Positions 20,366-62,051 of a stretch of DNA of 64,000 nt are shown one piece after another; position 1 is the first letter of the stretch; each line of letters begins with the position of its first letter. Source of the stretch: a bacterium (lineage in GTDB: Bacteria > Campylobacterota > Campylobacteria > Campylobacterales > Sulfurimonadaceae); the NCBI GenBank assembly GCA_018825665.1, contig JAHJEG010000022.1, forward strand, positions 1-64,000, given 5' to 3'. The translations under genes were made by a program, and so were the position numbers. The notes under the pieces were generated by a model. The model was not told where the DNA came from and searched no databases. It saw only the letters and a program-made list of their open reading frames with translations.

Positions 20366-20387
20366 ATAGCCCTTAAAATAGGGCTAT
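20366..20387 (-). terminator. Terminator of the DUF445 gene, at the island boundary
   Basis: A perfect 8-bp stem (ATAGCCCT / AGGGCTAT) with a six-base loop, overlapping the stop codon of the DUF445 gene. Read on the - strand it is followed by a T-rich stretch (TATCTTTG), as for an intrinsic terminator. Confidence 0.6.
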
Positions 20388-21094
20388 ATTAAGAAAGAAG
20401 AGATTAAACCAATTAGTCCACCAAAGACTCCGCCCCAAACTACCAGCCATGAGAGGTGTTCTTTGATGAGTTTTTGAACCATCTCTTTTACCATTGCGGG
20501 GCTTAGTTCGTTTAATCTTGCATCTATCACATTTTCAATCGATTGAAGCATGTCATCGCTCAAAGAAGAATTTTGCATATGGCTTTGCAAAGTTTGGTTA
20601 AACTCCTGTGTGGTGACTATTTTTATAACAGCGCTTCTCATCTTTTGCGAAAAGGGCTCTCTTAGACCTTCAAGCGCTTTTTCTCCGCCAAACATACCCA
20701 GCATTCCGCCAAAAGAGGATTCCATAACAGTCTTGCTCAGTGCATCAAAGGCCGGTGAAAAATCAGTTTCTTCTATGATGGGTACAAGGTCTATCTTCTT
20801 TTCTTCATTTTTAAAAAAATTGTCAAGCTGTTCTTTTGTAAAAAACTCACTCATCATAAGCTTTTTTACGGCTTCTTTAAAGGCTTCAAATCGTGCAGGA
20901 ATAACTCCGGAACCATAAAGAAAAGGAACCTTTTCAAAGAGCATGTGGATTGCCAGTTGGTTTGTCAAGGCTCCGGAGAGAGCGAATAAACCTGTAAAAA
21001 GCAAAAGAGAATCAAAGCTGCTATCAAGTGAGAATGAGAGGGCTATGAGAGCCAAGGCTGTAAGGTTGGTTATAAAACTTTTATTGAATTTCAA
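20384..21094 (-). CDS. DUF445 family membrane protein
   Basis: A 236-residue protein with DUF445 hallmarks: GALTNQLAIHMLFE near 40-53 and a GSGVIPARF segment soon after. Two hydrophobic helices lie at the N terminus (about 8-50) and one at the extreme C terminus (WGGVFGGLIGLISSFLI). Function is unknown in the family. It is the first gene right of the AT-rich island and has ordinary chromosomal composition. Confidence 0.85.
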   Translation of the reverse strand: MKFNKSFITNLTALALIALSFSLDSSFDSLLLFTGLFALSGALTNQLAIHMLFEKVPFLYGSGVIPARFEAFKEAVKKLMMSEFFTKEQLDNFFKNEEKKIDLVPIIEETDFSPAFDALSKTVMESSFGGMLGMFGGEKALEGLREPFSQKMRSAVIKIVTTQEFNQTLQSHMQNSSLSDDMLQSIENVIDARLNELSPAMVKEMVQKLIKEHLSWLVVWGGVFGGLIGLISSFLI

Positions 21095-21172
21095 AATAAA
21101 TCTCCTGTTTAAAAATGGAATTATACAAAAAAGGTATCATTATGCAAATATAATACCTAAAAGAGAAAAAAA

Positions 21173-21646
21173 ATGAAGCAAATAAGCTATGAGCTGTTTA
21201 AAACCGCAGATGTCAAAGAGATCGTAGAAGTGATAGAAAAAGAGCTTGGAACAAGAAATGAATCCCCTTTTTGGACGGATAAGATAGTTCCTTTTTCTGA
21301 GGCTATCTTAAGTGTTCTGATCCCTTTGCGGGATAACAGGATGCTGTTTGACCCTGAGGGAAATCCTCAGGGAGAGCTGACTCCGGAACTGTTTTTGGAC
21401 TGGAGCGATTTTGTAAGTTTGAAGAGCCTGGCGTTTACCTTGCAAAAATCAAATGTTGCAAGGGAACTGTTACGAACCAATCTGGACAAATCCACATGCC
21501 AAAAGTATGAGCAGATCGATTTGAAGCTTTTGGGAGATTACCTTAGCCGCTATACGGTAAACCTTGAAAATGAGTCGCTGGATTTTCCGATATCCAACTA
21601 TAATCTGCATCAGGGTGTCAGTAATGTAATCAAGTCACTTCTGTAA
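21173..21646 (+). CDS. Hypothetical cytoplasmic protein
   Basis: A 157-residue protein, divergent from the DUF445 gene. It has no signal peptide. A PFSEAILSVLIPLRD segment and an ELTPELFLDW segment are its most ordered-looking parts; the family is not recognised. An AGAGAAAAAA stretch precedes its ATG. A strong hairpin follows, so it is probably monocistronic. Confidence 0.6.
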   Translation: MKQISYELFKTADVKEIVEVIEKELGTRNESPFWTDKIVPFSEAILSVLIPLRDNRMLFDPEGNPQGELTPELFLDWSDFVSLKSLAFTLQKSNVARELLRTNLDKSTCQKYEQIDLKLLGDYLSRYTVNLENESLDFPISNYNLHQGVSNVIKSLL

Positions 21647-21663
21647 AAAATACCGCCAAAATA

Positions 21664-21698
21664 TACTCAAAATATCTTAAATCGATATATTTTGAGTA
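21664..21698 (+). terminator. Hairpin after hypothetical gene
   Basis: A perfect 12-bp inverted repeat (TACTCAAAATAT / ATATTTTGAGTA) with an 11-base loop lies 18 bp past the stop. It has no following T-run, so it is a transcript 3' end or partial terminator rather than a clear intrinsic terminator. Confidence 0.5.
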
Positions 21699-21770
21699 CT
21701 CCTCATCTACTTTTAGTTATAATAAAATGTATGTAAAGAACCACAAAAAAAATGAAGCAGGTTTTTGTAA

Positions 21771-23738
21771 ATGTCAAATCATTCTTTTAGCACCTTCGAT
21801 GTCTCCATAGATTTTATCCCTCTCAATGTTGCCGTATATGAGTATGTTGGTGATGGCTTTTGTATTGTTGATTTCAACACAATGGCTGAGCAGACAGAAA
21901 ATGTAAAACGGGAGGATATTATCGGCAAGCGATTAGAGAAAGTTTTTCCGGGCGTTAAGGATTTTGGGCTGTTTGATGTACTTCTGAGGGTGTATGAGAA
22001 AGGGGGCTGTGAAGACGCAGATCTGGGATTTTATGATGACGGGCGTGTCAGCGGATGGAGAAAAAACAGAGTATGCAGGCTTGAAAACGGCAATGTCATA
22101 GCACTTTACAGTGATATGACGGTTCAAAAGGATATAGAAAGCAGGCTTGAATCCTTAGGCATAATCCTGGACAACAGCATCAATGAAGTCTATATCTTTA
22201 ATAAAGAAGATTTACATTTTACCTATCTCAATAAAGCGGCGCAGAAAAATATCGGCTATACAATCAGTGAGATGCAGACCATGACCCCTGTGGATATTAA
22301 GCCTGAGTACGATTTAAAGAGTTTTTTGGAGTTGATAGAACCGCTGATGAGAGGGGAAAAAGATTTTCTTGTCTTTGAGACTGTTCATGAGAGAAAGGAT
22401 GGCACACGCTATAATGCGGAGATACGTCTTCAGAGTGTAAACAGAGGGAATACGGAGCAGTTCGTTGTGCTTACACATGATATTACGGATAGAAAAAATG
22501 CTCAGAGCAAACTGCTTGAGAGTGAAGAAAAATTTAGAAATATTGCCGAAAATGCACTTATGGGGATATTTATTTATAAAGAAAGGGGTCTTTATGCAAA
22601 TCAGGCTCTCGTTGAGATAAGCGGATATTCTACCCAAGAACTCTATGCTATGTCTCCCTGGGATTTGGTTACGCAGGAGTACAAAGAGCAGGTCAGGAAT
22701 ATATCCAAAAGGCGATTAAGGGGTGAGAAGTTCCCTCAGGAATACGAGGATATCAAGCTTGTAAAAAAAGACGGAAAAATCAGAACCGTACGCATCTCAA
22801 CGCAGACTATCATGTATGGCAATGCATATGCAGGAATGGGAACGATGATCGATATAACCGATATACAAGAAACAAAACAGCAGCTTAAGCTGTTGGCACA
22901 GGCGGTTGAACAGATGGATGAGCTTGTGCGAATCACGGACAAGGACGGAATTATCACCTATGTCAATGATGCGCTTGTGGCACATACCGGGTATAAGCAT
23001 GTGGAATTGCTGGGCAAAAAGATAGGGCTGTATAAATCAGGACTTCATAAAAAAGAATTCTACAAAGAATTATGGGAGACCATTGCATCGGGCAAGACAT
23101 TTAGAGGCGTTTTTATCAACAGAAAAAAAGACGGACAGATATATTATGAAGAGGAAACGATTACTCCCATCGTAGATGATAAGCAGAATATACAGTATTA
23201 TGTAGCAACCAGCCAGGATATTACGGACAGAGTCAAGATGGAAGAGAAACTCCATACCTTAGCTACGATAGACAGCATAACGTGTATTTACAACCGTAAT
23301 AAAATCGGTGAAGAGCTTGACATAGAGATAGCCCGTGCGAAGCGCTATGAGAGCAGTTTTGCACTGATAATGTTTGACATAGATTTCTTTAAAGCGGTAA
23401 ACGACAGATATGGTCACGATATGGGGGATTATGTTTTAAAAGAACTCTGTGCAGTTGTCTCAAAGCTGATACGTGAGAGTGACCGTTTTGGGAGATGGGG
23501 CGGAGAGGAATTTATTATTATCACTCCGATTATTCAAAAAGAGCAGGTGATGCTTCTTGCAAATAAATTAAAAGACGTCATCGCCACGCACGCCTTTAAA
23601 GAGATTAGCAAGGTAACGATAAGCATAGGGATAACTCTTCTAGGGCGTGAAGACACAAAGGAAAGCCTCCTAAAAAGAGTGGATAACGCCCTGTATGAGT
23701 CAAAAAACAGAGGTAGAAACAGGGTGAGTTTCAAATAG
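21771..23738 (+). CDS. Multi-PAS diguanylate cyclase
   Basis: A 655-residue cytoplasmic sensor that should make cyclic di-GMP. I see four PAS-like regions, roughly 12-115, 127-240 (with its VLTHDITDRKNAQ end), 250-370 and 375-490 (YYVATSQDITDR end). A C-terminal GGDEF domain follows, with GGEEF active site and the RESD inhibitory site five residues before it, so feedback inhibition by product is likely. The linker LHTLATIDSITCIYNRNKI is the usual start of the domain. There are no transmembrane segments or EAL domain. A TATAAT-like box is about 50 bp upstream. The input signal is not evident. Confidence 0.9.
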   Translation: MSNHSFSTFDVSIDFIPLNVAVYEYVGDGFCIVDFNTMAEQTENVKREDIIGKRLEKVFPGVKDFGLFDVLLRVYEKGGCEDADLGFYDDGRVSGWRKNRVCRLENGNVIALYSDMTVQKDIESRLESLGIILDNSINEVYIFNKEDLHFTYLNKAAQKNIGYTISEMQTMTPVDIKPEYDLKSFLELIEPLMRGEKDFLVFETVHERKDGTRYNAEIRLQSVNRGNTEQFVVLTHDITDRKNAQSKLLESEEKFRNIAENALMGIFIYKERGLYANQALVEISGYSTQELYAMSPWDLVTQEYKEQVRNISKRRLRGEKFPQEYEDIKLVKKDGKIRTVRISTQTIMYGNAYAGMGTMIDITDIQETKQQLKLLAQAVEQMDELVRITDKDGIITYVNDALVAHTGYKHVELLGKKIGLYKSGLHKKEFYKELWETIASGKTFRGVFINRKKDGQIYYEEETITPIVDDKQNIQYYVATSQDITDRVKMEEKLHTLATIDSITCIYNRNKIGEELDIEIARAKRYESSFALIMFDIDFFKAVNDRYGHDMGDYVLKELCAVVSKLIRESDRFGRWGGEEFIIITPIIQKEQVMLLANKLKDVIATHAFKEISKVTISIGITLLGREDTKESLLKRVDNALYESKNRGRNRVSFK

Positions 23739-23761
23739 TCTATTGCACTTTATCTTTATAT

Positions 23762-23772
23762 TTCCACATGCC
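23762..23772 (+). repeat. TTCCACATGCC word, intergenic copy
   Basis: An exact copy of the dispersed 11-base word, 24 bp after the cyclase gene and not in coding sequence. See the finding on the dispersed word. Confidence 0.8.
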
Positions 23773-23844
23773 AGACTTTTAGAATGTCTCCTTATGTTTA
23801 ATATAAATTCTATATAATAATAAAAAAATAAGACGGGCTTAAAA

Positions 23845-29610: not shown

Positions 29611-31083
29611 TTAAAAGCTGTACTTGATGTCCGCAAACACCCTGTCATTATCTTTGTTGCTCTCCATCAGCGGTTTGCCCCCTCCGATGTAATCGACTAT
29701 CCCAAAATTACAGCTCAGGGCATCTCTGATTTCGTATTCCATCCATACTCTGGCAAAACCGCCGTTTTGCCAGCTTGAGCCAAACATGCTTAGCAGAGCC
29801 GTCACATCTACAGTATCATTTGCAAAAGACTTCGTGGCTCTGAGTGCGGTTTGAACTTCATCTTCATCTACAAAATCCGCCTGATCTTTCATCTGGTTTT
29901 CATACTCAAAGATATGTCTATCGGCAAGCTCAAAAGATAAAACGGTATCTTTAAACCCCATATATTCCACTCCGACCAAAGCGTCCAGTCGGTTTTTTTC
30001 ATCCAGGGTCGTGTTATACCGTACACCGTTTAAAAATGCGATCTCACTTTTATAGAGCCAGTTCCCGTTTACTATATTTAGGGCACTTCCCAGCATATTT
30101 ATCTTGCTGACCTCTCTTGTGATGGAAGTCAGCGGAGTGCTGGGGCTTGGGAGTTTGTCGAAGTGCCATTTTTGATCAAGTACATTTGCCGCATAAAAAG
30201 ATAAATCCCAGCCTGAGAATACGCCGTTGGCGGCAAAGGCGTATTGCATATTATGTATGGAAGCAGCGGGTGGATGCAGGGGCAAAAACGGGTCAGGCAC
30301 AGAGGTACCTGATGAAGCAAAGAGCGCATCCACCGCGAAAAACTCACCTCTTGGTGTAGCCTCAAGCATAATCCTGTTCTCAGCAATGGCCATAAAAGAA
30401 AGGTTCCACATGCCAAGATAGTAATCAAACTTCGCCATAGCGACACTGAGTCTTAAATCTTCAATATCAGTCATTCCCGGCTGTCGGTTGTCTATGGGGT
30501 TGATGACATCTGTCACGCGAATGTTGTCAGACTTGCCCCAGACGACAATTTGTCTTCCGATTTTTGCATCAAGGGAGGGAGATATCTTCCCCTGGAGATA
30601 CACATCATCAAAGCGCAACTGCGTTTTATAGTCGTCTAAAATCTCATCTCTGTAATCATTGTCTTTGTGAATGTCATAGATAGCATCATAAAAAGCATCA
30701 CCGCTGACTCTTAGTTTCCAGTTGTCGTTTAGTTTGGAATCGAGTTGGAGATAGAGTGAGGTCTGGGCCTGGTTTATCCCAGAGTACTCAATGGAATCAA
30801 CTTCATGTTTGATATATCCCAATGATGTTTTAAAAGCCAGATTGCCGCTTAGAGAGGTATTGCTTTTTTTTGGCTTGGCATGTGGAACGGGCAAAGAGGA
30901 ACCGCTCTTGGCATGTGGAACACTCTGTATATCATCAAACCCCTCCAGTGCATCAAAGGTGTCGGATGTATCTTCTATAGTTTCAAAACCGCTTAAATCA
31001 TCTTCTATATTTTCACCTGCCAGCAGACTTCCACATGCCAGCAGACTCAGGATACCCAAAAATAAAAGCAGTCTCTTTAACAT
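29611..31083 (-). CDS. DUF1302-like outer-membrane beta-barrel protein
   Basis: A 490-residue secreted protein: signal peptide (LLLFLGILSLLACGSLLAG), an acidic linker to about residue 60 with two VPHAK copies, then beta-rich sequence with alternating aromatic residues ending in ADIKYSF, a C-terminal Phe as in outer-membrane barrels. DUF1302 proteins commonly sit with a LolA-like protein and MMPL-type RND proteins, exactly the genes that follow upstream on this strand. Export of a lipid or hydrophobic compound is the usual guess. The LLAC in the signal peptide resembles a lipobox but the barrel argues against a lipoprotein. Confidence 0.75.
   Translation of the reverse strand: MLKRLLLFLGILSLLACGSLLAGENIEDDLSGFETIEDTSDTFDALEGFDDIQSVPHAKSGSSLPVPHAKPKKSNTSLSGNLAFKTSLGYIKHEVDSIEYSGINQAQTSLYLQLDSKLNDNWKLRVSGDAFYDAIYDIHKDNDYRDEILDDYKTQLRFDDVYLQGKISPSLDAKIGRQIVVWGKSDNIRVTDVINPIDNRQPGMTDIEDLRLSVAMAKFDYYLGMWNLSFMAIAENRIMLEATPRGEFFAVDALFASSGTSVPDPFLPLHPPAASIHNMQYAFAANGVFSGWDLSFYAANVLDQKWHFDKLPSPSTPLTSITREVSKINMLGSALNIVNGNWLYKSEIAFLNGVRYNTTLDEKNRLDALVGVEYMGFKDTVLSFELADRHIFEYENQMKDQADFVDEDEVQTALRATKSFANDTVDVTALLSMFGSSWQNGGFARVWMEYEIRDALSCNFGIVDYIGGGKPLMESNKDNDRVFADIKYSF
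30877..31039. repeat. Cluster of three TTCCACATGCC words
   Basis: Exact copies at 30877-30887 and 30910-30920 (reverse on + strand) and 31029-31039 (forward), inside the 5' part of the DUF1302 gene. Two encode VPHAK, the third encodes ACGS in the signal peptide, so DNA rather than protein is conserved. Another exact copy lies at 30404-30414 in the same gene (GMWN). Confidence 0.85.
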
Positions 31084-31868: not shown

Positions 31869-34264
31869 TTTTTATCCTTTGTTGTTATTTCTTTTGTTGT
31901 CAGTGTTAAAAGAGCGGGCCCGAGTATGATATTTGAGATAAGGGCTATCGTGATTGCCCCGCCTGCTAGAATCCCGAAATTTATCAGGTTGTTCAAAGAA
32001 GCAAACATGTAGACATAAAATCCGAGTGATAAAACGACGGTGGTCGCAACAAGTGCGCTTCCTGTACCCATCATCGTTTCCTCTACGGATCTTTTAACGC
32101 CCAAGCCCTGATGATGGTATCTCGCAAAGTTGTGAAAAAAGTGAACCGTGTCATCCACGGAGAGCCCTATCACTATCGCGCCGACAAGCATGGTAAACAT
32201 ATCCAGCGGCATGTGGACCATGCTCATAAAGCCCAAGGTCATTATAATTGGAAGAAGGTTGGGTATCATGCTGATCAAGCCGATTTTGACACTTGAGAGC
32301 AAAAGCATCATCATCATTGCGATAAGCACAAAAGCCACAACATAGCTCACAGCCATAGAGCTCATAGCTGCCGAGAGGGTTCTTTGAAAGAGCGGAACCA
32401 TACCGGTGATAGTGATTTTTACATCATCGCCAAGTTCGCTTTTCATCAGCGCAGTCAATTCATTTGAAAGTGCTTCATACTTGCCTGCTTCCATCCACGG
32501 GAGTTTAAGCGTGAGTCTTGCCTTGCTGAATGAAGAATCAACCAAATCCTCTAAATCATCGCTTCCGCTGTTTTCAAAAAGTAAGAACTCCTGAGGGATG
32601 AGCGCGTCATTTTCCGTGATGACATAGTATTTTTGCTGGTTCTCATGCAGTGCACGGTGAATCTCTTTTAAGACCTCTGCAACACTCCACCCTTTGCCCA
32701 CAAAATATTTCTCATTTTGTATCGCTTGCGCTTTTTTTCTCAAGCTGTCTATCTTTGTCAGAAGTTCGGAGTTGTACAGACCGTTTTCTTTTTGTGTATC
32801 GATGATAACTTCCATTGTGACGGAGCCTTTGAGCTCTTTGTCGACAGTGTTTGTAGCGGTTTTAATGGGTGAGTTGTCCGGCTGCCAGCTGAGCGGGTCG
32901 TGTTTGAACTCAACCTGTGTCGCAAAGTAGAAAAAGACCACGGCAATAACACCGCTGATACCTACTATGGGCTTGGCATGTTTGAAACTAAAAATAGCCA
33001 CAGAGTCTAAAAACCTGTTCATAAGAGTAAACTCTTTGATCTGTACTTTTTTTGCTTTTTTGATTGGTAAAACGGCTAAAAGAGCAGGGAGTAAGATTAT
33101 GGTATTGAGAAGTGCGACCATAACCCCTACAGCTGCAAAAATCCCTAAATCCGCTATGGGCGCGATCTCTGCCGTTGAAAAAGACAAAAGTCCGGCGGCC
33201 GTTGTGAGGGATGTCATGATAATCGCAAGACCTGAATGTCCGAGTGCAAAAGAGATCGCCTTGTTTTTGTCCGAATGTTTGTCGAGGTGCTTAAAGAACA
33301 TGGCAAGCAGGTGGACAACAGCACCGATTCCCACAGCGAGCAGGAATGAGGGGAGTATCTGTGTCGGTATCGTGATGGGTGTGCCCACAAGAGCCATGAT
33401 TCCCACCGTGCTCAAAAGGGAGAGCACAACGATGAAAATAGGTAAAATAACCGCACTGATACGGCGAAAAACGACAAACAAAAAGAGCATCATCATCAAT
33501 AAGACAAGTTTGATAAACTTTTGCATATCTTTTTGGACCGACTGTTTGTTATAGTCATTGACGGCAAGGGAACCGGCTATGAAGACATCAAAATCCTCAC
33601 TTGAAAACTCTTTGGCTATCTGCGCGGCTTTTCGAACCATCTCGCTTTTTGAAGTGTCTTTTAAAAACTCCAAATCCTCTGCAGGTGTTTCCTCTGCAAA
33701 GCCCGCCAAAGCATCCAGATTTTTGGAACCCTCATAGGCGTTTGGTTCGAGGATGATGGTCGTGAGAGTATTTTGCTCATTCAGAAGAAGATTCTTGTAC
33801 ATCTCGTTGTTGCGTGCGATATTTTTTATATCTTCAAGCTCTTGCGCATTGCTCGGCCATGCATAAAACAGGTCCTCAACAATAAGCCTGTCCCCTTCGC
33901 CTCTCGTGTTCCTTGCATTTATAAGGGATGTTATATCATTGAGGTAGGGTGTATTATCCGCTAAATGTGTATGAAGTTTTTGAAGTTTTTCCAAAAAAGT
34001 TATATCAAAGATATCCTTGCCGCGGATAACGACCATAATCTTTTCATCTTGCCCAAACTGCTCTTTGAACTTCTCATACTCCACCAAAGCAGGGTCTTGT
34101 TTGTGTAAAAAGCCCTCCGTGGACGTATCGATTGTAATCTTGGGCAGGTTGGATATAAGCAATAGACTTACAGCAAGGATAACAAGTATAATCTTTTTCG
34201 GATGAAGCGTAATCCGTTCACCCATGGTATAAAGCATCGATTCTGCTTTTTCTCTCCAATTCAT
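31865..34264 (-). CDS. MMPL/HpnN-type RND transporter, copy 1
   Basis: A 799-residue inner-membrane protein with 12 predicted helices in two RND halves: an N-terminal helix followed by the DTSTEGFLHKQDP motif, TM cluster near 250-400, a second loop, and a second TM cluster near 630-790 with GLSVDDTVHFFHN in the second proton-relay helix. It is shorter than AcrB-type pumps, typical of the lipid/hopanoid-exporter branch. It is about 70 bp downstream of a clearly homologous gene. Spaced GSGSDDLEDLVDS-type segments are nearly the same in both copies. Confidence 0.85.
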   Translation of the reverse strand: MNWREKAESMLYTMGERITLHPKKIILVILAVSLLLISNLPKITIDTSTEGFLHKQDPALVEYEKFKEQFGQDEKIMVVIRGKDIFDITFLEKLQKLHTHLADNTPYLNDITSLINARNTRGEGDRLIVEDLFYAWPSNAQELEDIKNIARNNEMYKNLLLNEQNTLTTIILEPNAYEGSKNLDALAGFAEETPAEDLEFLKDTSKSEMVRKAAQIAKEFSSEDFDVFIAGSLAVNDYNKQSVQKDMQKFIKLVLLMMMLFLFVVFRRISAVILPIFIVVLSLLSTVGIMALVGTPITIPTQILPSFLLAVGIGAVVHLLAMFFKHLDKHSDKNKAISFALGHSGLAIIMTSLTTAAGLLSFSTAEIAPIADLGIFAAVGVMVALLNTIILLPALLAVLPIKKAKKVQIKEFTLMNRFLDSVAIFSFKHAKPIVGISGVIAVVFFYFATQVEFKHDPLSWQPDNSPIKTATNTVDKELKGSVTMEVIIDTQKENGLYNSELLTKIDSLRKKAQAIQNEKYFVGKGWSVAEVLKEIHRALHENQQKYYVITENDALIPQEFLLFENSGSDDLEDLVDSSFSKARLTLKLPWMEAGKYEALSNELTALMKSELGDDVKITITGMVPLFQRTLSAAMSSMAVSYVVAFVLIAMMMMLLLSSVKIGLISMIPNLLPIIMTLGFMSMVHMPLDMFTMLVGAIVIGLSVDDTVHFFHNFARYHHQGLGVKRSVEETMMGTGSALVATTVVLSLGFYVYMFASLNNLINFGILAGGAITIALISNIILGPALLTLTTKEITTKDKK

Positions 34265-39015: not shown

Positions 39016-39488
39016 TGAAATTTACAATCATTAAGGACCTAAGTCAAGACAGTATGATGAAGCCTATTTTATCAGGACTGCTTTTGTTCACAATACTTTA
39101 TCTGCTGTCTGACATAATTGTAAAACACAATAGTTTTGGAGTATTGCCCAACGCTATAGAGATGACTCTTTTTGGCAATGAAGAGGAATTCCTGGAAGGA
39201 ATGGGTAAGACATTATTTTTAGAGTTTTGGCATGTGGAGATTTTTTTTATTATGATGGTTGTCTTTATCTCAAGCACAATCTATACTCGTCTCTCAAATG
39301 CTTCAAAAAGTGCAGTTGTTATTGTAAATATTATGATGATAAGCTCTATGATTTCACTTATAAGTTTACCTATTGCTTATTTTTTAAGCTCTTATTTTAT
39401 AAGTGTTTATGCAGTAACATTTTTCATTTGGCATTTTTTAGCACTCTATATCTCACTTTTTTCCATTAAAAGATTATATTATGCATAA
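39015..39488 (+). CDS. Four-helix membrane protein with membrane histidines
   Basis: A 157-residue membrane protein with helices near 18-35, 68-90, 100-123 and 128-150. His73 (EFWHVEIFF) and His140 (FFIWHFLALY) lie in membrane segments and could bind haem or a quinone. A FGNEEEFL motif before helix 2 recurs as MGNEESFL in the next gene, with the following histidine at a similar place, so the two are diverged relatives. Overlaps both neighbours. I do not recognise a named family. Confidence 0.7.
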   Translation: MKFTIIKDLSQDSMMKPILSGLLLFTILYLLSDIIVKHNSFGVLPNAIEMTLFGNEEEFLEGMGKTLFLEFWHVEIFFIMMVVFISSTIYTRLSNASKSAVVIVNIMMISSMISLISLPIAYFLSSYFISVYAVTFFIWHFLALYISLFSIKRLYYA

Positions 39489-41307: not shown

Positions 41308-44300
41308 TTAATTTTTTCTATTTCCAAACTTAAAATAAACCGCTGGTACAACAATCATATTTAAAATTGTCGAGGAGAGTAAACCAAATAAGATAACGAT
41401 GGCCATAGGTGCTTGAATCTCACTTCCAGCTTCTCCCATTCCAAGTGCAAGAGGAACCATTGCAAGACCAGCGGCTAATGCTGTCATCATAATTGGTATC
41501 AACCTCTCTTTTGCACCTTGAATAACAGCCTGCTTGAAGTCTTGGACATCCTCATGCTGTATTAAATTTTGAATATGTGCAATCATCATCACTCCGTTAC
41601 GTGTGGCTATACCAAAAAGAGTAATGAAACCGATCAATGTAGCAACGGATATAACTCCATCAGCAAAATATAAACCTATAACCCCTCCAATGAGTGCGAG
41701 TGGAAGGTTTATGAGAATAACCAAGGCATCTTTAAAAGATTTAAACACTGTAAATAAAAGTAAAAAGATACCTATGATAATCAACCCTCCTAAAGTTAAA
41801 AGTGTTTGGGTGGATTTTTGTGCGCTTTCAAACTGTCCACCGTATTCAATTCTATACCCTTTTGGCAAATTGACAGATTTATCGACATTCTCTTTAATCT
41901 CATTTACAACACTTACTAAATCCCTCCCAGCTACATTAGCCGTGATTACACCTTTACGCTCCACACCCTCTCTACTAACCATATAAGGCATACGTGTATA
42001 AGATATGTCGACCAAAGCATCCAGAGGAACCTCAATTCCAGAAGCTGTTTTTATCATAGTTGATTTTATTTCTGTTAGGTCAATACTCTTTGCAGTATCA
42101 TATTTTAATGCCACATCATACAATGCACTTCCTTCAATCACTTTAGTGATATTTAGACCATAAAAAGCAACCTGAACTATCTCTCCCAACTTTTCAACAC
42201 TCAAGCCATATGAAGCCATAATGTCTCTTTTGAACTTTAATGTAAGCTGTGGAAGATCTGACTGGTTTTCAACCATAACATCTACAGTTCCATCCACACT
42301 CTCCATAATCTCTTTGAGTTGATTTGAAATTTTCCTTTGCTCATATATATTTTCTCCAAACACCTTGAGCGCTATAGCAGCTTTGGAACCCGAGAGCATA
42401 TGATCTATTCTGTGTGATATAGGCTGCCCTATAGTGATGTTCACTCCAGAGATAGATGAGAGTTTCTCGCGTAGACTATGAAGAAACTCTTGCTTTGTCG
42501 TACCTTCAAGTGATAGTGTGACTTCCATCTCAGATGCATGAACACCTTGGGCATGTGGATCAAGCTCTCCGCGTCCCGTACGTCTTGTAACAGATACAAC
42601 CTCTTTAAAAGAGAGTAAAGCTGATTCAACTTCACCACCTAACTCTCCAGACACCTCCAGTGAAGTCCCAGGCAATGAAACAACAGAAACAGTCAAACTT
42701 CCCTCATTAAACTCTGGAAGAAAAGATTTCCCCGCTATAAATAGATAAGCAGATGCAATACAAAACAGTATTATTGAAACAGTTCCAAGAGCTTTCCATC
42801 GATCTATTGTTACATGCAAAAGCTTTTCATAACTACTCATTAACCAAGTAATATGTTTAGCGCTGTGCACAGATGAATGTTTTAGCTTCAAAAAATAATA
42901 ACTTAACACGGGTGTGATTGTTAAGGCAACTACTAAAGAAGCGATAAGAGAACTTATATATGCCAAGCCTAAAGGTGCCATTAACCTGCCTTCAATACCT
43001 TCAAGAAAGAACAGAGGTAAAAAAACGAGTAAAATAATCAGAGTGGCAAACACTATAGAGCTTTGTATCTCCAAAGTGGCATGAGCAATTATTTTTACGC
43101 GAGACTCTTGTGCGCTGGCTTCTTTCTTGTTGTTGATTTGTAAACGTCTTATAATATTCTCAACAACAATGATTGCATCATCAACAAGCACCCCAAGTGC
43201 AATAGCCATCCCTCCAAGTGTCATTGTGTTAATCGATATGTTGAGTGTATTGAGTAAAAAAACTGTAAAAAACAGGGAAAGCGGAATAGCTGTCAGTGTA
43301 ATTATTGTAGCCGAACCACTCAGTAAAAACAGAAGTACAACGAGAACCACTAAAATAGCTCCATCACGTAAAGCATTACTAAGATTGCTTATAGCGTTTT
43401 CTATAAAATAGGACTGTTTGAAGAGATCTGTTTCAATATTTACGTTTTTAGGCAGTTGCTGCTGTAAATGTTCCAGAACGCTCTCTATCTCATGAGTAAG
43501 TTGCAAAGTGTTTGCCTTAGGTTGCTTTTGAATAGCAAGCACAACTGCTTCATTTGAATTAAAAGAACCTATTCCACGTTTTGGAGAAGCTCCTATCTGC
43601 ACTTTTGCAATATCACTTATGAGAACAGGATTACCCTCATGTGTTTTAACAAAGGTATTTGAAATATCCTTTAGGTTGTCAATACGTCCAACTCCATATA
43701 GAGTGAACTCTTGAGAGTTACTTGTATAAAAGCCTGCATTGCTGTTAGAGTTTGACTCTTTTATAGCACGTATCACATCTCTTACACTTAAGTCATACTC
43801 TGATAACTTTTCAACTTTTAGAAGTACTTGAAACTGTTTGGTGTCTCCACCGATTGGAATAACTTCAGCAATTCCCGGTATTGATAAAAGACGTTGACGC
43901 ACCTGCCAATCAGCAATACTTTTTAACTCTATAGAGGTATGTTCCTTGGAGTGCAGGGCAACAAACATGATTTCACCCATTATAGATGAGATTGGTGCTA
44001 GCACAGGGGAAGATATATTTTTAGGCAAAAGGTCTGAAACAGTCTGTAGTTTTTCAGAAACAAGTTGACGTGCGAGATAAATATTTGTATCCCATTCAAA
44101 TTCTGCATAGATAACCGAGATTCCCCCAAGAGAATTTGAACGGATACGACGAAGACCAGAGAGACCATTAAGACCATTCTCTAAGGGAACTGTTATCAAA
44201 CGCTCCACCTCCAAAGAGGTCATTCCTTGAGCCTCCGTTAGGACTGTTACAGTAGGGGCTGTCAAATCAGGAAAAATATCAACAGTTGATTTTTGAAGCT

Positions 44301-44397: not shown

Positions 44398-45957
44398 TTA
44401 ATGAGCATGACCATGGCCAACTGCAGCAGGAGCCAATGATGAAAGCATAAGTCTATAAGCACCTTTAGTTACCACACGCTCTCCAGCTTCTATTCCCGAT
44501 CTGATTTCAACATACATAGAATCAGTATCGCCCACTTCTACAAGCCTTCTCTCAAAGCTCTCTCCACCATTTTGTACAAATACAACATTTTCACCGTTGT
44601 CACTTATGATTGAACTTTTGGCAATGGCTACAACTTCTCTAGATTTATCAGAATAAACCTTTGCGCTATATCTCGATCCAGGTTTGATCTGTATGTTTTT
44701 GTTGTCAATTTCAAACACTACTTTTGCTGTACGTGTTTTTGGATCTATAAGACTGCTAAAGTAAAGCAGTTTAGCTGAATTGTTTGTCGTAAAGCTAAGT
44801 GAACCTTGCGTTTGAAGTAGCTCAACACCGATCGGCTTTCCTATACTAGCAACTTCATGCTGCGATATATTTGCTTTCAACCAAAGTTTTGAAATATCTG
44901 CAATCTGCATAATTATCTCGCCCTCTTGAACATAGGTGCCGTTAAAAGCTTCGATATCAATAATATTACCATCAATATAGCTTTTTAGTGATACACCGTT
45001 TCCATTTTTTCCACTGCTCAAACCCTGTAGTTTTTTGTTGATTTTCTTTAAAGAAGCCTTTGCAATTTCGTAATTTTGCTGCGATTCCTCTAATCGTTTT
45101 AAAGGTACTGCATCTTGAGTATAAAGCTTTTGAAGGCGCTCACTTTCATTTTTGGTAAGCTTGAGTTCAGCTTCTGCTTTTGTCAATTCAAATTGCAATG
45201 TTGCGATATCTTCACTTTGAGCCAAAGAAGGAATAATATAAGCTACCTTATCGCCTGCTTTAACACTAGAACCCGTTGTAATGTGAGATGCTACAATCAC
45301 AACTCCTGACACCGGTGCTGAAACAAATTGTTTAGCATTGCTAGGAATTTGCACCTCTACAAAGCTTGGTGTTGCATAGTGAAGTGGGCGCTTAGAAGCC
45401 AGCTCAGTTGCAAAATCAACTTTCCATTGCTGTTCTTTTAAGTATGAGATCTCTGTAGCATTCTCTTCATGTTCCACATGCCCAACATCCTTTAGAGATG
45501 CATGAACATTGAATGATCCCAGTCTATGTGTAACTGTTTCTTCTTCTTCTTCTTCTTCTTCCATCTCTATGCTAATGCTTAACTCTGCCTTGCCGGTCTG
45601 TTTTGGTATAGCAACAGGTCGAAAGATACCGGAAGTTTTAACTCCATCAATACTAAAACACTCCTTCTTGCCACCAATATAATCCAAACATGCTTCCACT
45701 TTTGCCTTATCTATAGGTTTAAAATCTGATATAGTGGTGAAATGAGCAAGGAATGTGCTTGGTTCGTTTAATACAAATGGCTCAAACTCCACAAATAATT
45801 CTGTCTTATCTGTATAGTGTGTAAGTGCTATCGGTTCCATTTCCACATGCTCGTTATGCTTACTTTTGTCTGATTGATCCTCATGTTTATGATGTAGATA
45901 CTCATCACAGCCAAGGAACAATACCAATATTGGAATCAGTATAAATAATTTACTCAT
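44398..45957 (-). CDS. Membrane fusion lipoprotein of the metal efflux system
   Basis: A 519-residue CzcB-family adaptor anchored by lipidation (lipobox LFLGC). It has a long N-terminal extension of about 190 residues: a His/Glu-rich start (HHKHED...HNEHVEME), a beta domain and an eight-Glu run. The usual barrel-lipoyl-hairpin part follows (VSAPVSGVVIVASHITTGSSVKAGDKVAYI; coiled-coil hairpin about 255-310), ending GHGHAH. The extra domain and terminal His look like metal binding in the periplasm. It overlaps the TolC gene by eight bases. Confidence 0.88.
   Translation of the reverse strand: MSKLFILIPILVLFLGCDEYLHHKHEDQSDKSKHNEHVEMEPIALTHYTDKTELFVEFEPFVLNEPSTFLAHFTTISDFKPIDKAKVEACLDYIGGKKECFSIDGVKTSGIFRPVAIPKQTGKAELSISIEMEEEEEEEETVTHRLGSFNVHASLKDVGHVEHEENATEISYLKEQQWKVDFATELASKRPLHYATPSFVEVQIPSNAKQFVSAPVSGVVIVASHITTGSSVKAGDKVAYIIPSLAQSEDIATLQFELTKAEAELKLTKNESERLQKLYTQDAVPLKRLEESQQNYEIAKASLKKINKKLQGLSSGKNGNGVSLKSYIDGNIIDIEAFNGTYVQEGEIIMQIADISKLWLKANISQHEVASIGKPIGVELLQTQGSLSFTTNNSAKLLYFSSLIDPKTRTAKVVFEIDNKNIQIKPGSRYSAKVYSDKSREVVAIAKSSIISDNGENVVFVQNGGESFERRLVEVGDTDSMYVEIRSGIEAGERVVTKGAYRLMLSSLAPAAVGHGHAH
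45538..45561 (-). repeat. (TTC)8 triplet repeat coding an eight-Glu run
   Basis: Eight perfect TTC triplets, read as GAA (Glu) on the - strand, in the N-terminal extension of the fusion protein. Length changes would stay in frame, so only the acidic linker would vary. Confidence 0.85.
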
Positions 45958-47954: not shown

Positions 47955-49862
47955 CTATGCGTTTGATTCCACAAGCATACCGTCAATGAGGGTAAAGAGT
48001 TCCTGAGAAGCCTCTTCCATTTTATCAAAATTATCTAAAATGATTTTATCATTTTTGATTGTGTCTTCTTCAGGATTTTTTTCCAGATATGCCAGATTTG
48101 AGTTTGCATTATTGTGGACTATGGCATGTGGAACTGCGATTTTTGAGTATGAAGATGTAGCTGAGAATCTGCGTTTTCCTTCACTGTCGTACCATTTTCC
48201 AAGTCTGCATTCGTGAGGCGTTGAAGCAGGAAGGACTTTTTCAAGCGTCATAATAGAATTATATGCACGGGCCTTATAGAGGATATGGTCAATTTTTGCC
48301 AAGACTACAAAGACGCTGTTTTCCATACTGTAGGAGTAGTTTACGATTTGTGAAGAGTTGTCGTTGAGTTCTACAAGTGTGCTTTCAAAGTTATTGATCT
48401 TTTCCGTAGAGCCTTCTACCGTGCTTTTCATTGCTTCGGAGCTTGTTTGTATCTCATTCATGTCTTGTTGGAGCGATTTGATAGACACGGATATCTCTCC
48501 TGTTGCCTTGTGTGTTCTCTCTGCGAGTTTTCTTACTTCATCGGCAACTACTGCAAAACCTCGTCCATGCTCGCCGGCTCTTGCTGCTTCAATTGCGGCG
48601 TTGAGTGCAAGAAGGTTGGTCTGGTCGGCTATGTCTGTAATGAGTTCGATAACAGAGGTGATATTATTCGTTTGATTCGTGAGTTCGGAAATACTGTGGT
48701 TGTTGATATTAACCTGTTCGCTCAGGGCATCGAGTTCATCCACTATCTCACTGATGTTTTCACGCGAATTGCTGGCTAGACTTGCCGCCGATTTGGTCGC
48801 ATTTGTAATTATTTTGAGATCATTGATATTACTGTTAAGGTTATCCTGTATCAGCGAGAGTGATTCTGTTACATTGATGCTTCTGGTGCTTAGCTGTGCG
48901 TTGAAGGCATTTCTGAGCGCATTTTTGTTTTGGATCTTCATAAACTCAATGCTTCCTGAGACACTCTCTATAGCTTTTACAAACTCTCCGCTCATCCCCT
49001 CCGAGGATATCTTGTGTGTGAAAATACCATTGGACGCGTCATTGATAGTAACATTTATCTCATTGATAAGATTCTCTATATGTGTTAAGAGTTTTGAAAG
49101 TTCCATCCCCATGATACCAAGCTCAGTCTCCGTATCGGTGTCAGAAGTGGCACATTTGTGACTGAAGTCCCCATTTGCGGAGAACCCTATAAGTGAAGTG
49201 AATTTATTGATTCCGTTTGTTATAGATGTTCGTATCATCGTCGCCAAAATAAAAACTACGATACCGACCGTAATCCCAGCAAGCAGTACCAGTATTTTGT
49301 AGAAGTTCAGATTGTCGCCCAGTGAGACTGAGTCTTTTGTCAACTCTTTTTGTTTAAATTCTACGAGTTTTTTAAATGAAATCCTCGAAGCATTGGCAAA
49401 AGGGGATAGGTCGTGTTGGTATTTTTTGAATGTTACGTCTTTATTGTTATAGATGTCATCTTTTGTAAGAGATTTCATCATTATAAATGAGTTATCCAAA
49501 AAAGCCATTGTTGAATTTTTGGCATCCTGCACCATCTTTAAAGAAGAATCATGTGCCAACATCTTTTCAAGTGAACCAAAAAGAAATCGAATTCTCTCAA
49601 TAGTCTCATTGAGTTTGGCAATATCTTTTTGATAATCTCCGCCTAGCATTATATCTCTGGTCGTACGGCTGACATAGTTTAGATTTTTTTCAATTTCTAA
49701 AGTCTGCAGCGCCCCGAGCATAGAGTTTTTATGAAGGTGGTCATATTTGGATTCTATCTGACTCATCGCTATAAAAACAAATACGGTGGCAGAAAATACG
49801 GAAACCGTAACCATCAAGATAAAATAGTTCATCTTTTTTTGGATACTTAAATTTTTAAACAT
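47955..49862 (-). CDS. Methyl-accepting chemotaxis protein with CZB domain
   Basis: A 635-residue transmembrane receptor: TM1 about 12-32, a four-helix periplasmic domain, TM2 about 188-210, HAMP-like linkers, the conserved signalling tip ([32 protein letters not shown]), and a C-terminal CZB domain. The CZB domain has [16 protein letters not shown] and [10 protein letters not shown], giving the His-Cys-His-His zinc set. CZB domains sense zinc or oxidants such as HOCl. It sits next to the metal-efflux operon, suggesting a shared metal stimulus. Confidence 0.9.
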
Positions 49863-56965: not shown

Positions 56966-56980
56966 AAAACAGGGAAAAAG

Positions 56981-58336: not shown

Positions 58337-58353
58337 ATCGTTTCATCTACAGT

Positions 58354-58383
58354 TTCCACATGCCGGCATTGTGGCATGTGGAA
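58354..58383 (+). terminator. Hairpin built from two inverted TTCCACATGCC words
   Basis: TTCCACATGCC at 58354-58364 and its complement GGCATGTGGAA at 58373-58383 with an eight-base loop, 17 bp past the gdhA stop. An 11-bp perfect stem followed by TAAAATTTT. In Neisseria, uptake sequences commonly form terminators this way. Confidence 0.75.
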
Positions 58384-58483: not shown

Positions 58484-59101
58484 ATGCTACAGCAAACACA
58501 AGCAAGAGTAAATATTTACGCACTTTTATCCCGCGTTCTTCTTCAGGAATTAGAAGTTGATACTTTGAAAATGATAAAAAATGATGAAAATATTTTAGAT
58601 TTTTTTCCAAACCTGAAAAAATGGAAAGAGTTGAATGAACTAGATGAAAAAATACTTTTGGATGAACACCTTAATCCCGATTTTGTAAACCTCTCCATTC
58701 TTCACCTGATTCCCTACGAGACATTTTATACCAGAGAAGATCAGATGATCGAGACAGGCGGGGCTAATCCGGTGACGGATATGTACAGTGCGTATGACTT
58801 TATGGTTGATTTTGAAGAAGCAAGAACGGTCTCTGCCGACCATATCGGTGTAGAACTTGAATTTATGCACCATTTGTGTAAGGCTGAGATGAAAGCTTTG
58901 GAAGAAAATGATACGGAAGCTCTAAGAGAACTAAAAGAGATTCAAAAAGAGTTTTTAAACAAGCATCTGCTCCAATGGGCTCCGCTGTATCTTATTAATA
59001 TGAAGTTTGAAGCAAGAACACCGCTGTATTACGATGCAGCGGATATGGCGCTTGAATTTATTTTAAGCGACAATGAATACTTAGTAAGTGAGCTGCACTA
59101 G
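58484..59101 (+). CDS. TorD/DmsD-family molybdoenzyme chaperone
   Basis: A 205-residue cytoplasmic chaperone. Typical segments: LSILHLIPYETFYTRED, YDFMVDFEEA, DHIGVELEFMHHLCKAEM and FLNKHLLQWAPLYL. It binds the Tat signal of a molybdenum or tungsten enzyme before export. In Campylobacterota such a gene precedes formate dehydrogenase; here no catalytic subunit is in the window. Confidence 0.85.
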   Translation: MLQQTQARVNIYALLSRVLLQELEVDTLKMIKNDENILDFFPNLKKWKELNELDEKILLDEHLNPDFVNLSILHLIPYETFYTREDQMIETGGANPVTDMYSAYDFMVDFEEARTVSADHIGVELEFMHHLCKAEMKALEENDTEALRELKEIQKEFLNKHLLQWAPLYLINMKFEARTPLYYDAADMALEFILSDNEYLVSELH

Positions 59102-59104
59102 TCA

Positions 59105-60208
59105 ATGTCTTTAATCCATTTAGATGCCAGCAAGTGTGTCCGTTCTTTAAGCAAAGAGAGTGAATGTAATAAATGTGAGCTTATTTGTCCGACAGATGCG
59201 ATAATCGTAGCGGACAATCCGCTTCCCGCTATTAATTTTTCATCGTGCGTGGGATGCGGAGCCTGTCATGCGATTTGTCCAAATGAGGCACTTGGGCTCG
59301 ATGATTTCAATTCTACGGATTTCTTCTTTGATTTTATGGAAGAAGAGGGTACGCTGATTTCTTGTAGAAAAAATGTACCTTGTATATCCGCTTTGAGCGT
59401 TGAGCACATTATATCTTTGGCAGTTTTGAAAAAAGAGATAGTCTTTGATATGGGGTATTGCGACACTTGTGAGATAGCTTCCACATGCCGGGTCCAGATA
59501 TTGAAAAACTATGAAGAAGCCAGCTATCTGCTCGAAGCTATGGAAAATGAATCGAAGATACAATTGAGCAATATCTGTTATGAAGAATCAAAAAAAGAGG
59601 ATTCAAACAGAAGAAGCTTTTTGCGTTCTATGAATCTGACCGGCTTTGCAAAGACCAGAATTGATTTTGAAAAAGAGGTCAAAAAAGCCACGGATGAACT
59701 CATAGAACATACCTTGGCCAAGGCAGATATCGCACTTTTAAAACAAAAGCGAATCCCTGAAAAAAGAAAGATATTCTTTACGGCTATCAAGAGGGTGGAA
59801 AAACCTTCCCTGTTTCATATAGTAGATGCCGGTGAGGTAAGTTTTACATCCCAAAAACTTATGAATGAAGAGAGTTGTACCGCCTGCCAGATGTGCTACA
59901 GGGTCTGTCCGACCGGGGCACTGACATCGGATGTTAAAAACTCAAAGATAGATTTTGATCCTTTTTTATGCATCAAATGCCATATCTGTCATGATGTCTG
60001 TGAGCCGGATGCGATTACTCTTTCAAGTTCTTACAATATAAAAGAGTTCTTTGAACCTGAAGTGCAAAATCTCATCGCATTCAAAGTCAAAAGATGCGAT
60101 GAATGCAATGTGATATTCAGTACCAACGCCAATGACAGACTGTGTTACAGATGTAAATGTGAAGAGGAAGAGGCCCGTGAACTTTGGGGCATTCCAGAGG
60201 ATATGTGA
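59105..60208 (+). CDS. Poly-ferredoxin with C-terminal zinc ribbon
   Basis: A 367-residue iron-sulfur protein with four 4Fe-4S motifs: CNKCELICP near 21-29, CVGCGACHAICP near 48-59, CTACQMCYRVCP near 258-269 and CIKCHICHDVC near 290-300. A middle domain of about 150 residues is helical. The end (CDECNVIF...CYRCKCEEEE) looks like a rubredoxin-type zinc ribbon. An uptake word lies within (STCR). It follows torD by three bases; it is the ferredoxin of the formate-dehydrogenase-associated accessory cluster. Confidence 0.82.
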   Translation: MSLIHLDASKCVRSLSKESECNKCELICPTDAIIVADNPLPAINFSSCVGCGACHAICPNEALGLDDFNSTDFFFDFMEEEGTLISCRKNVPCISALSVEHIISLAVLKKEIVFDMGYCDTCEIASTCRVQILKNYEEASYLLEAMENESKIQLSNICYEESKKEDSNRRSFLRSMNLTGFAKTRIDFEKEVKKATDELIEHTLAKADIALLKQKRIPEKRKIFFTAIKRVEKPSLFHIVDAGEVSFTSQKLMNEESCTACQMCYRVCPTGALTSDVKNSKIDFDPFLCIKCHICHDVCEPDAITLSSSYNIKEFFEPEVQNLIAFKVKRCDECNVIFSTNANDRLCYRCKCEEEEARELWGIPEDM

Positions 60209-60209
60209 A

Positions 60210-60971
60210 ATGATGAATAATGCCAACGAGATATCTCGTAAAACAAAACTTTACGGCTATATAGGCGAAAATGCAGGTGTCAGCAGGTTTAGTGCGATTC
60301 TTAACAAGATGTTTAAAAGCAACGGCGATGATGCGATGATCATACCGATGAATATCCGAAAGGATGATTTTTATTTTACCCTCAGCAATATGAAAAAATC
60401 ACACGTCGAGGGTGCCGTTATCTCAAACGAGTTTGTTTGTGATGTCCCTGAGATACTTGATGAAGCCAGCAGTATGGTCAAAAGAAGCGGCATGTGCGAT
60501 ATAGTCTTTAGAGAAGGGGAAAAACTTCGGGGTGATATCTACGGTACGAGAGTCTTAAGCGAGCATCTTAAGGATATGGGAGTTGCCAAAATAGCAATGA
60601 TCGGAACATCTCCACATGCCAGGGCTTTTTCATTTTTGGCATGTGGATTTCATATAAGCTTTTTCAATGATAATCTTGAGGAGCTTATGCGTTTTACCCA
60701 GGATGTTGAACTAAAAGATGCCGATATAAACCGTTTGGCCAAAGGCATGCACGTGGATTTATCCCAATATGACGCTCTTTTGGATTTTTCGGATATGCAG
60801 AGTTTGGACATGATAGTTGTTTTGCCCGGGCTCAACCTTGATATGAAAAATGAAAAAGAGTTCTCTGCTCTTGGGGCAAGAGCACGTGAGCTTGGGGCAA
60901 GTTATACAAGCTATGATGATATACTGGAAAAACTAACAAATAGAGCCTATAAAGCTATAAAAGGAAAATAG
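60210..60971 (+). CDS. AroE-like protein of the Fe-S cluster operon
   Basis: A 253-residue protein that looks like shikimate dehydrogenase at the start (LYGYIGENAGVSRFSAILNKMF) and has a Rossmann-like GTSPHARAFSF later, but the catalytic lysine and NVTxPxK block of AroE are missing (GAVISNEFV at that place). So it is probably non-catalytic or has another reaction. ATG at 60210 follows AGAGGA by eight bases. Two uptake-word copies with one mismatch each form an inverted pair inside it (60610, 60638). Confidence 0.6.
   Translation: MMNNANEISRKTKLYGYIGENAGVSRFSAILNKMFKSNGDDAMIIPMNIRKDDFYFTLSNMKKSHVEGAVISNEFVCDVPEILDEASSMVKRSGMCDIVFREGEKLRGDIYGTRVLSEHLKDMGVAKIAMIGTSPHARAFSFLACGFHISFFNDNLEELMRFTQDVELKDADINRLAKGMHVDLSQYDALLDFSDMQSLDMIVVLPGLNLDMKNEKEFSALGARARELGASYTSYDDILEKLTNRAYKAIKGK
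60610..60648. repeat. Inverted pair of one-mismatch uptake words inside the AroE-like gene
   Basis: CTCCACATGCC at 60610-60620 and GGCATGTGGAT at 60638-60648, 17 bp apart, coding SPHAR and ACGF. The core TCCACATGCC/GGCATGTGGA can form a 10-bp stem. Confidence 0.7.
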
Positions 60972-61478
60972 ATGAACCAACATGATTTAAGTGATTTAAG
61001 AGCAGAATTTGATAAATTCGTGCAAAACAAGTGTGCATTGGACCCGGAAGCAGGAGTGAGTCAAAACCCTGATGCAGGGGATAAAGAGGATGAAGAACCT
61101 GTTCCCCAGTTCGTAGATGCACTCACTACAAAACTGCTGGCGCCTGCTCATAGCGGAGTCTATCTCTCCCGTCTGGATATTAAAAGGATAGCAGAGGCAA
61201 TCGATGAGTCTCTACCGATAAAAGAGCGCATAAAGATGGTCCGTTCTTTATTTAGACATACTACTAAAAAAGAGTATCTGCATGATGCTTTTACGGAAGT
61301 GGATAAGCATATAAACGGCCGTATATTGATCTATAAAGAGTTAGGCGAAGCGTTTCCTGCATCCAAGAGTATTTTTGAGGGACATGTTGCCAAGGCTGAA
61401 AAGACTATGCGAATGTTTAAGACTATTATAGAAGATTTTGAAGAGATTGAACCGACAAGCGATCCTATGTTTGTATAA
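60972..61478 (+). CDS. Hypothetical protein of the Fe-S accessory operon
   Basis: A 168-residue acidic soluble protein beginning directly after the previous stop. An acidic linker near 28-45 is followed by helices; no motif recognised. Its stop codon lies in the first copy of a 14-bp tandem repeat. Probably part of formate-dehydrogenase-type maturation because of its neighbours. Confidence 0.6.
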   Translation: MNQHDLSDLRAEFDKFVQNKCALDPEAGVSQNPDAGDKEDEEPVPQFVDALTTKLLAPAHSGVYLSRLDIKRIAEAIDESLPIKERIKMVRSLFRHTTKKEYLHDAFTEVDKHINGRILIYKELGEAFPASKSIFEGHVAKAEKTMRMFKTIIEDFEEIEPTSDPMFV

Positions 61479-61511
61479 AGCTGTTTGTATAAAGCTGTTT
61501 GTATAAAACGA
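61470..61511 (+). repeat. Three tandem 14-bp units across a stop codon
   Basis: TTTGTATAAAGCTG twice, then a third copy changed at the end (TTTGTATAAAACGA). The first unit contains the stop of the preceding gene. Confidence 0.85.
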
Positions 61512-61526
61512 AAGTTTTATACAAAC
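61497..61526. terminator. 13-bp stem hairpin with GAAA loop
   Basis: A perfect 13-bp stem (GTTTGTATAAAAC / GTTTTATACAAAC) closed by a GAAA tetraloop, between convergent genes. A likely two-way terminator made from the last tandem unit. Confidence 0.75.
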
Positions 61527-61544
61527 GTATGTCAGAAAACCGGG

Positions 61545-62051
61545 TTACAGCACTGTTTGAAGCTGTACAAACCCCTGCCAGATAAGCGAGCTACAGATTC
61601 CGGCTGCAAATCCCGCTACGATATCATCGCCCATAACGCCAATTCCGCCTTTTGCTTCACGGTCAATCCTGCCTATGATAGAAGGTTTGGCAATATCAAA
61701 ATATCTAAAAAGCACGAAGGACAAAATACTTTGGATTAAAAATCCGTTTTCCCACATGCCGACCTCACTCATACTCACACTCATAGCCGGTGCTACGCTA
61801 AGGGCAAACCACATCCCTGCGAGTTCATCTATGACTATGCGTTTGTCATCGTGTATTCCGCTTGTCTTTTCGTATTTGTCAATAGATTTTATGGCAATAA
61901 CACTTATCAGAACCGTAGCCATAAAAAGCGTCTGGGCATCAAAATACGTTAAGATCCACATGCCAAGAAGCAAAGCGACTATACTCCCCGCAGTACCGGG
62001 AGCTTTTGGGGATAAACCGCTATATCCCAGAGTGATAAAAAACCAATTCAT
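61545..62051 (-). CDS. pgpA: Phosphatidylglycerophosphatase A
   Basis: A 168-residue membrane enzyme that dephosphorylates phosphatidylglycerol phosphate. PKAPGTAGS near 15-23, IVIDELAG near 72-79, and FRYFDIAKPSIIGRID...GGIGVMGDDIVAG are family signatures; the acidic DELAG and DD are the metal site. Four hydrophobic helices. Confidence 0.95.
   Translation of the reverse strand: MNWFFITLGYSGLSPKAPGTAGSIVALLLGMWILTYFDAQTLFMATVLISVIAIKSIDKYEKTSGIHDDKRIVIDELAGMWFALSVAPAMSVSMSEVGMWENGFLIQSILSFVLFRYFDIAKPSIIGRIDREAKGGIGVMGDDIVAGFAAGICSSLIWQGFVQLQTVL

Follow-up and report, generated by a model that had tools for sequence, protein, structure and literature searches.

The question raised by this locus is why a single 11-base word, TTCCACATGCC, recurs in it. 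The window, i.e. the whole stretch of 64,000 nucleotides that was analyzed, comprises positions 1 to 64,000 of contig JAHJEG010000022.1 (assembly GCA_018825665.1) and comes from a member of the Sulfurimonadaceae (Campylobacterota) whose genus, by inference from sequence, is Sulfurimonas: its fumarate reductase shares at best 84-87% identity with proteins of Sulfurimonas MAGs, although the hits also include records with other labels. Its genome (G000) consists of 2,340,223 bases in 59 contigs and is 98.6% complete. In the original prediction the word had been proposed as a candidate DNA uptake sequence. The sequence tests support this proposal, but it was too narrow, as the word is one of several in the genus: TTCCACATGCC is probably the DNA uptake sequence of this Sulfurimonas species, with dialects in its relatives.

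Excess, shape and placement of the word

Allowing at most one mismatch, 20 matches to TTCCACATGCC were found in the window, ten exact and ten with one mismatch, compared with a mean of 0.64 and a maximum of 3 in 100 dinucleotide shuffles. Genes were called by a simple longest-frame script, which departs in places from the open-reading-frame list; this caller places 15 of the 20 copies inside genes and five between them. All ten exact copies were recovered where they had been predicted. One is intergenic (23762-23772, plus strand) and two form an inverted pair 3′ of gdhA (58354-58383; plus strand at 58354, minus strand at 58373). The others are coding and are read as GMWN (30404-30414, plus), VPHAK (30877-30887 and 30910-30920, both minus), ACGS (31029-31039, plus), GHVE (45472-45482, plus), VPHAI (48123-48133, minus) and STCR (59479-59489, plus); the peptides GMWN, ACGS, GHVE, STCR and VPHAK agree with those given previously. 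The two VPHAK copies lie 33 bases apart in one gene.

Nine one-mismatch positions had been listed correctly and a tenth, at 21490-21500 (ATCCACATGCC, plus strand, coding), had been missed. Coding copies with one mismatch are located at 22996-23006 (TTCCACATGCT), 32208-32218, 39229-39239 and 42550-42560 on the minus strand and at 45841-45851, 61750-61760 and 61954-61964 on the plus strand. The remaining two constitute an inverted pair (60610-60648; plus strand at 60610, minus strand at 60638), which the simple caller places in intergenic sequence and which sits inside a 279-codon ATG frame (60132-60971) of the open-reading-frame list.

The excess extends to the whole genome, in which 535 exact copies were counted, 281 forward and 254 reverse, against none of the reversed word. 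In a 432-kb sample the 11-mer was the most over-represented word, with 104 copies against 0.13 expected from an order-3 Markov model, and TTCCACATGCC and its parts headed the ranking for every word length between 8 and 12. A genome-wide count near the Markov expectation had been named as a result that would speak against the original prediction; the counts obtained are not near it. A larger sample of 523 of the 2340 kb, for which contigs were picked partly as those listed first in the genome count, was representative in density (130 exact copies in 523 kb compared with 535 in 2340 kb).

The unit of excess spans 10-12 bases and has sharp edges, and conservation ends beyond about 14 bases. The full motif is about nTTCCACATGCCR, with a nearly invariant core CACATGC. 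On the 3′ side the 11-mer is followed by a purine and then by a weak purine preference at two further positions, while on the 5′ side a weak preference for A is seen two bases ahead of the word. Mismatches are concentrated at two positions: among 86 one-mismatch copies in G000, 47 deviate at position 0 and 21 at position 2 (together 68 of 86), and eight in the core at positions 3-9. The same pattern was obtained for a relative, G150, in which 57 of 77 deviate at position 0 and 11 at position 2 (together 68 of 77), and three in the core.

Within the 523 kb of G000, 177 copies of TCCACATGCC were found. Of these, 136 are coding, and the 41 that are intergenic exceed the expected 13.6 three-fold. 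The coding copies occupy all six frames and lie on the same strand as the gene in 66 cases and on the opposite strand in 70. For G150, 130 copies are coding and 51 intergenic (16.1 intergenic expected), and the copies in its genome are divided into 450 forward and 457 reverse.

Related genomes and other words

The genome set comprised 149 genomes, namely G000, 89 others of the same genus and 59 of other families. High counts of TTCCACATGCC occur only in the own genus (662 in G056, 595 in G072, 573 in G087 and 318 in G045), in which lower counts are also found (130 in G076, 83 in G069, 50 in G041 and 33 in G036); each of the 59 genomes of other families contains 0 to 2 copies. Among 17 further genomes, Sulfurimonas sp. 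S03.Bin072 (G150) contains 907 copies, E14_metabat.bin.8_sub (G149) 77 and the other 15 contain 0 to 4. A look at related genomes, as had been advised, thus shows that some members of the genus share the word.

At orthologous sites in word-sharing relatives the word was exact in 19 of 22 comparisons (11 of the 22 from one assembly, G150 and L102 contigs) at a flank identity of only 0.69, compared with 1 of 143 in other relatives. For this comparison 8 of the 177 sites, which lie close to the end of a stretch, were excluded, and matches had to reach 60% identity and to span the site. To control for codon conservation, ACATG was followed within one group of relatives, in which it persisted in 24 of 28 comparisons at word sites but in 22 of 79 outside the word (p = 1e-7), with the one-mismatch class (27 comparisons) left out. 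G036, G041 and G069 were counted with the other relatives in the ortholog comparison and with the word-sharing group in the ACATG control.

A word search in sampled stretches of relatives identified TCCACATGCTA in G036, CTACATGTAGA in G006, G032 and G017, CTACATGTA in G055, TTACATGTA in G011 and TTACATGTAAA in G108 and G138, which belong to another family of the order; in many sampled genomes this search found no clear word. The stretches of G002, G006 and G010 partly overlap, so that contexts were counted once and expectations are uncorrected. In genome counts, CTACATGTAG occurs 229 times in G055, 214 times in G032 and 192 times in G006, and TTACATGTAA occurs 397 times in G011, 1220 times in G108 and 1309 times in G138, where the reversed controls gave 0 to 8 in the bearing genomes. 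These words are palindromes, since TTTACATG is followed by TAA at 64 of 74 sites in G108 and CTACATG by TAG at 40 of 64 sites in G032. Of the TACATGTA sites sampled in G108, 19 of 39 are intergenic.

Beside the ACATG words a second family consists of AAACGC, with the next bases mostly AG or CA; the pattern AAACGCMR was counted 3508 times in G016 (634 reversed) and 1925 times in G014 (197 reversed). A third family, CTCACGCA, is represented by 948 copies in G022 against 39 reversed. Among the 90 genomes of the genus, 23 bear an ACATG word (9 the asymmetric form and 14 the palindromic form, with no genome bearing the two together), 17 an AAACGC word and six a CTCACGCA word. Word-bearing was defined by thresholds chosen by eye (30, 20 and 40 copies; ratios of 2.5 and 10), and kinship is not taken into account in the shuffle test of this tally. 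No genome of the genus falls into two word families, apart from G010, whose assignment as a seventh CTCACGCA genome (10 against 1) was discarded as a small-count artefact. In G070 a TCTTAGCATCT-like word is mildly in excess (L089-L090; AGATGCTAA 17 times against 2.2 in 40 kb) and possibly represents another word family.

The distribution of the words was also compared with a ComEC tree of 39 rows, from which the row of G112 was dropped, as its best match was another protein, and in which the short row of G069 was kept. The word labels cluster on this tree, with 14 changes compared with 19.9 after shuffling. Only the two-row CTCACGCA label makes up one side of a branch, indicating that words were switched several times or that comEC moved. 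On balance, we favor a wider interpretation in which sequence-specific uptake occurs in Campylobacterota and changes fast, with at least three unrelated word families (ACATG, AAACGC and CTCACGCA cores), palindromic dialects, TTACATGTAA in another family, repeated switching of the receptor and a genus split into mating groups.

A proposed uptake mechanism and its alternatives

Competence genes, for which a search had been recommended, are present in G000: beside ComEC and DprA, two frames of 86-87 residues with HHH motifs resemble ComEA, and a single cluster encodes a secretin, GspE, GspF, GspG and small pseudopilins. This cluster resembles the Cts system of C. jejuni. Ten prepilin-like matches were found, none of them tied to the word. 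No homologue of ComP turned up among the matches, in which it was not searched by name.

From these data, we infer a preference during uptake and a drive by transformation and recombination. A surface DNA receptor would prefer the word when a competent cell takes up free double-stranded DNA. Word-bearing DNA would enter more often and replace its homologue by recombination, by which copies born by point mutation would be spread and kept, while foreign DNA lacking the word would be taken up poorly. As related species use other words, the preference of the receptor would have changed several times. By analogy with ComP, the receptor is most likely a minor pilin or pseudopilin. An uptake sequence would explain the long and strict word, its strand symmetry, its intergenic excess and the coding copies in all frames. 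It would also explain why the word is conserved where its flanks have diverged and why related species bear words that are nearly exclusive.

Several observations weigh against an uptake sequence. ComEC was matched in 141 of the 149 genomes, and in 107 of the 108 good ones, and because it is near universal it discriminates nothing between word bearers and others. Of the 90 genomes of the genus, 44 bear none of the tested words, and ComEC was matched in all but one of these (43 of 44). GspG, matched in 86 of the 149 genomes and in 48 of the 90 of the genus, shows no link with word-bearing in the genus (Fisher p = 0.67) and was unmatched in several word-rich genomes, e.g. G006, G010 and G016, which counts against the pseudopilus as the only machine; on this ground, the idea that the words are linked to one Cts-like pseudopilus alone was rejected. 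Known uptake sequences are stressed as non-palindromic (PMC1939737), and some of the words found here are palindromic. At the aligned place, species with palindromic words sometimes hold their own word, e.g. TCTACATGTA in G006, but the sharing of positions between asymmetric and palindromic words (7 of 53 compared with 8 of 124) is not significant (p = 0.15), so that these examples are no more than suggestive. The absence of the word from foreign DNA is seen in one island. Finally, the copies in the G000 sample are oriented 109 to 68 in arbitrary contig orientation; this excess stems mostly from contigs C2 and C4 (38 to 16) and is seen neither by GC skew nor in the genome-wide counts.

Among the alternatives, a self mark made by DNA methylation, in which methylated CATG or ACATGT and not the base sequence would be recognized, is unlikely. 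The palindromic words do contain ACATGT, which is the sort of site read by methylases, and a precedent exists in the phylum to which G000 belongs, since DNA of Campylobacter jejuni methylated at RATTY is taken up (PMC8468864). There, however, a methylase marks a motif that is short and common, whereas the excess seen in the present case is that of a long and rare word. In each of the five genomes examined CATG falls short of expectation (e.g. 331 against 411 in G108), and ACATGT outside the long word is low in G108 (12 against 22.5) and G011 (9 against 31.3), which is not the case for G032 (38 against 24.9); in each of these three genomes the expectation refers to all ACATGT and the observed count to ACATGT outside the long word. 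These counts weaken methylation of CATG or ACATGT as the sole unit. Moreover, usual methylase sites are shorter than the clearly edged unit of 10-12 bases, and the word of G000 is no palindrome.

A function inside the cell, such as chromosome organization, repair or a HIP1-like repeat, with the excess brought about by selection or biased conversion in the absence of uptake, also seems rather improbable. In its favor, the palindromic words resemble repeats like HIP1, the unexplained repeated octamer of cyanobacteria, and the 43 genomes with a ComEC match and none of the tested words are in line with it. Swaps between unrelated words inside one genus would, however, be odd for a chromosome-maintenance site, leading-strand bias is lacking and the word is absent from the dpd-type island described below.

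The strand data bear on a role as an oriented site of the Chi or KOPS kind, for which RecBCD/AddAB or FtsK would be the reader and which is very improbable. One exact copy per 4.4 kb falls in the range of Chi densities, and the local one-sidedness of contigs C2 and C4 would fit such a site. Nevertheless, when the stretches of G000 were sorted by GC skew, 81 and 96 copies were obtained (p = 0.29), which indicates no bias between leading and lagging strand, and the 290-kb contig of G150, mostly of negative skew, carries 58 and 66 copies. Strong strand or replichore skew, the other result that had been named as speaking against an uptake sequence, was looked for in the sampled DNA and not seen. 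The palindromic words found in relatives have, moreover, no orientation. On the strand data above, this role was rejected.

A last alternative, in which the copies would act as transcription terminators or belong to a small mobile repeat, can practically be dismissed. In its favor, of the 11 inverted pairs within 40 bp all but one (10) lie between genes, and the one that was folded, the pair at 58354-58383, earlier described as terminator-like, is stable (12-bp hairpin, -20.3 kcal/mol, z -4.4). However, only 11 such pairs exist among 177 sites, of which 136 are coding in all frames, and the conservation beyond about 14 bases that is expected of a mobile repeat is missing, for which reason the latter was rejected. 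Lone coding copies contradict a terminator role as a general explanation. For the pairs it can hold, and some intergenic inverted pairs may also end transcription.

Comparison with known uptake systems

An uptake sequence in Sulfurimonas would resemble the DNA uptake sequence (DUS) of Neisseriaceae, a word of roughly 10 bases with about 943 to 5918 copies per genome, of which dialects differ in related species and species with the same word cluster (PMC3630211, PMC3868556). Known uptake sequences occur in coding and intergenic DNA, have no orientation bias and form inverted repeats in about 10% of cases (PMC1939737). All these features, a short word in many copies, dialects, coding and intergenic copies, lack of orientation bias and inverted pairs, are shared by the word studied here. 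The Neisseriaceae DUS is read by the minor pilin ComP. It differs from the present word in its unrelated sequence, in its phylum and in its higher copy number (535 in G000 and 907 in G150). Furthermore, CTG is common to the eight Neisseriaceae dialects, whereas the words of this genus have at least three unrelated cores and some of them are palindromes.

With the uptake signal sequence (USS) of Pasteurellaceae (Haemophilus influenzae) the word shares a strict short inner core, tolerant outer bases and occurrence on both strands. Another shared feature is that most copies lie inside genes, 65% in H. influenzae (PMC7811141, PMC1939737) and 136 of 177 in G000. The sequences are unrelated, and AT tracts like those of the H. 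influenzae USS are not clear around the G000 word, near which a weak AT preference is seen.

Two of the cited papers present uptake sequences as a trait of Pasteurellaceae and Neisseriaceae (PMC7811141, PMC2734928), which mainly live on mucosa (PMC7811141). No uptake sequence in Campylobacterota was found among the listed titles and abstract openings of the literature covered, which leaves outside most subscription papers and all preprints, where a report is possible; of the 15 papers that contain TTCCACATGCC and the 18 that contain TTACATGTAA, none is on bacterial DNA uptake by title. The origin of uptake sequences is debated. Sulfurimonas are mostly free-living sulfur oxidizers. An uptake word in this genus, if true, would be an independent case outside hosts and in a new phylum, and several words that replace each other in one genus would make it possible to study how changes in receptor and genome are coupled. 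The contrasts among species would provide natural material for finding the receptor. In addition, the words would predict which species exchange genes and would show how DNA could be tagged for the transformation of Sulfurimonas.

The dpd-type island and further observations

By word scan and annotation, positions 1-21489 of the window form a word-free, AT-rich stretch that carries a dpd-type defence island (7-deazaguanine in DNA). The word had been described as missing from the AT-rich first 20 kb, and indeed the first copy with at most one mismatch is the one at 21490. The island (1-20245) has a GC content of about 0.24-0.32 and encodes DpdJ (3060-7577), a first DpdB (14348-15415), DpdA (15412-16644), a second DpdB (16644-17768) and QueE-, QueC- and QueD-like proteins. 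Over the first 20 kb of the window, the four 5-kb bins have a GC content of 0.27-0.30 and zero copies. Two more word-free runs of about 15 kb each have GC contents of 0.38 and 0.42, i.e. ordinary values. The proposed comparison of word density between islands and core genes gave a word-free island, but is limited to this one.

Some minor observations were made around comEC and pilin-like genes in other genomes. In G069, which has 83 words, the ComEC frame (L054:13358-14107) is open for about 255 codons only, with stops upstream. A sequence of events in which competence is lost before the words was rejected, as G069 is a single case with an unchecked assembly. Three tandem pilin-like genes, the last truncated at the contig end, are located at L182:3-1111 and by eye adjoin genes like flgB, flgC and fliE; pilin pairs similar to these are found near ComEC in the other family of the order (L206, L208). 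Beside ComEC, a DnaB-like helicase of 826 residues is encoded at L183:6775-9255 and contains, after GKC, an insert that by eye is intein-like.

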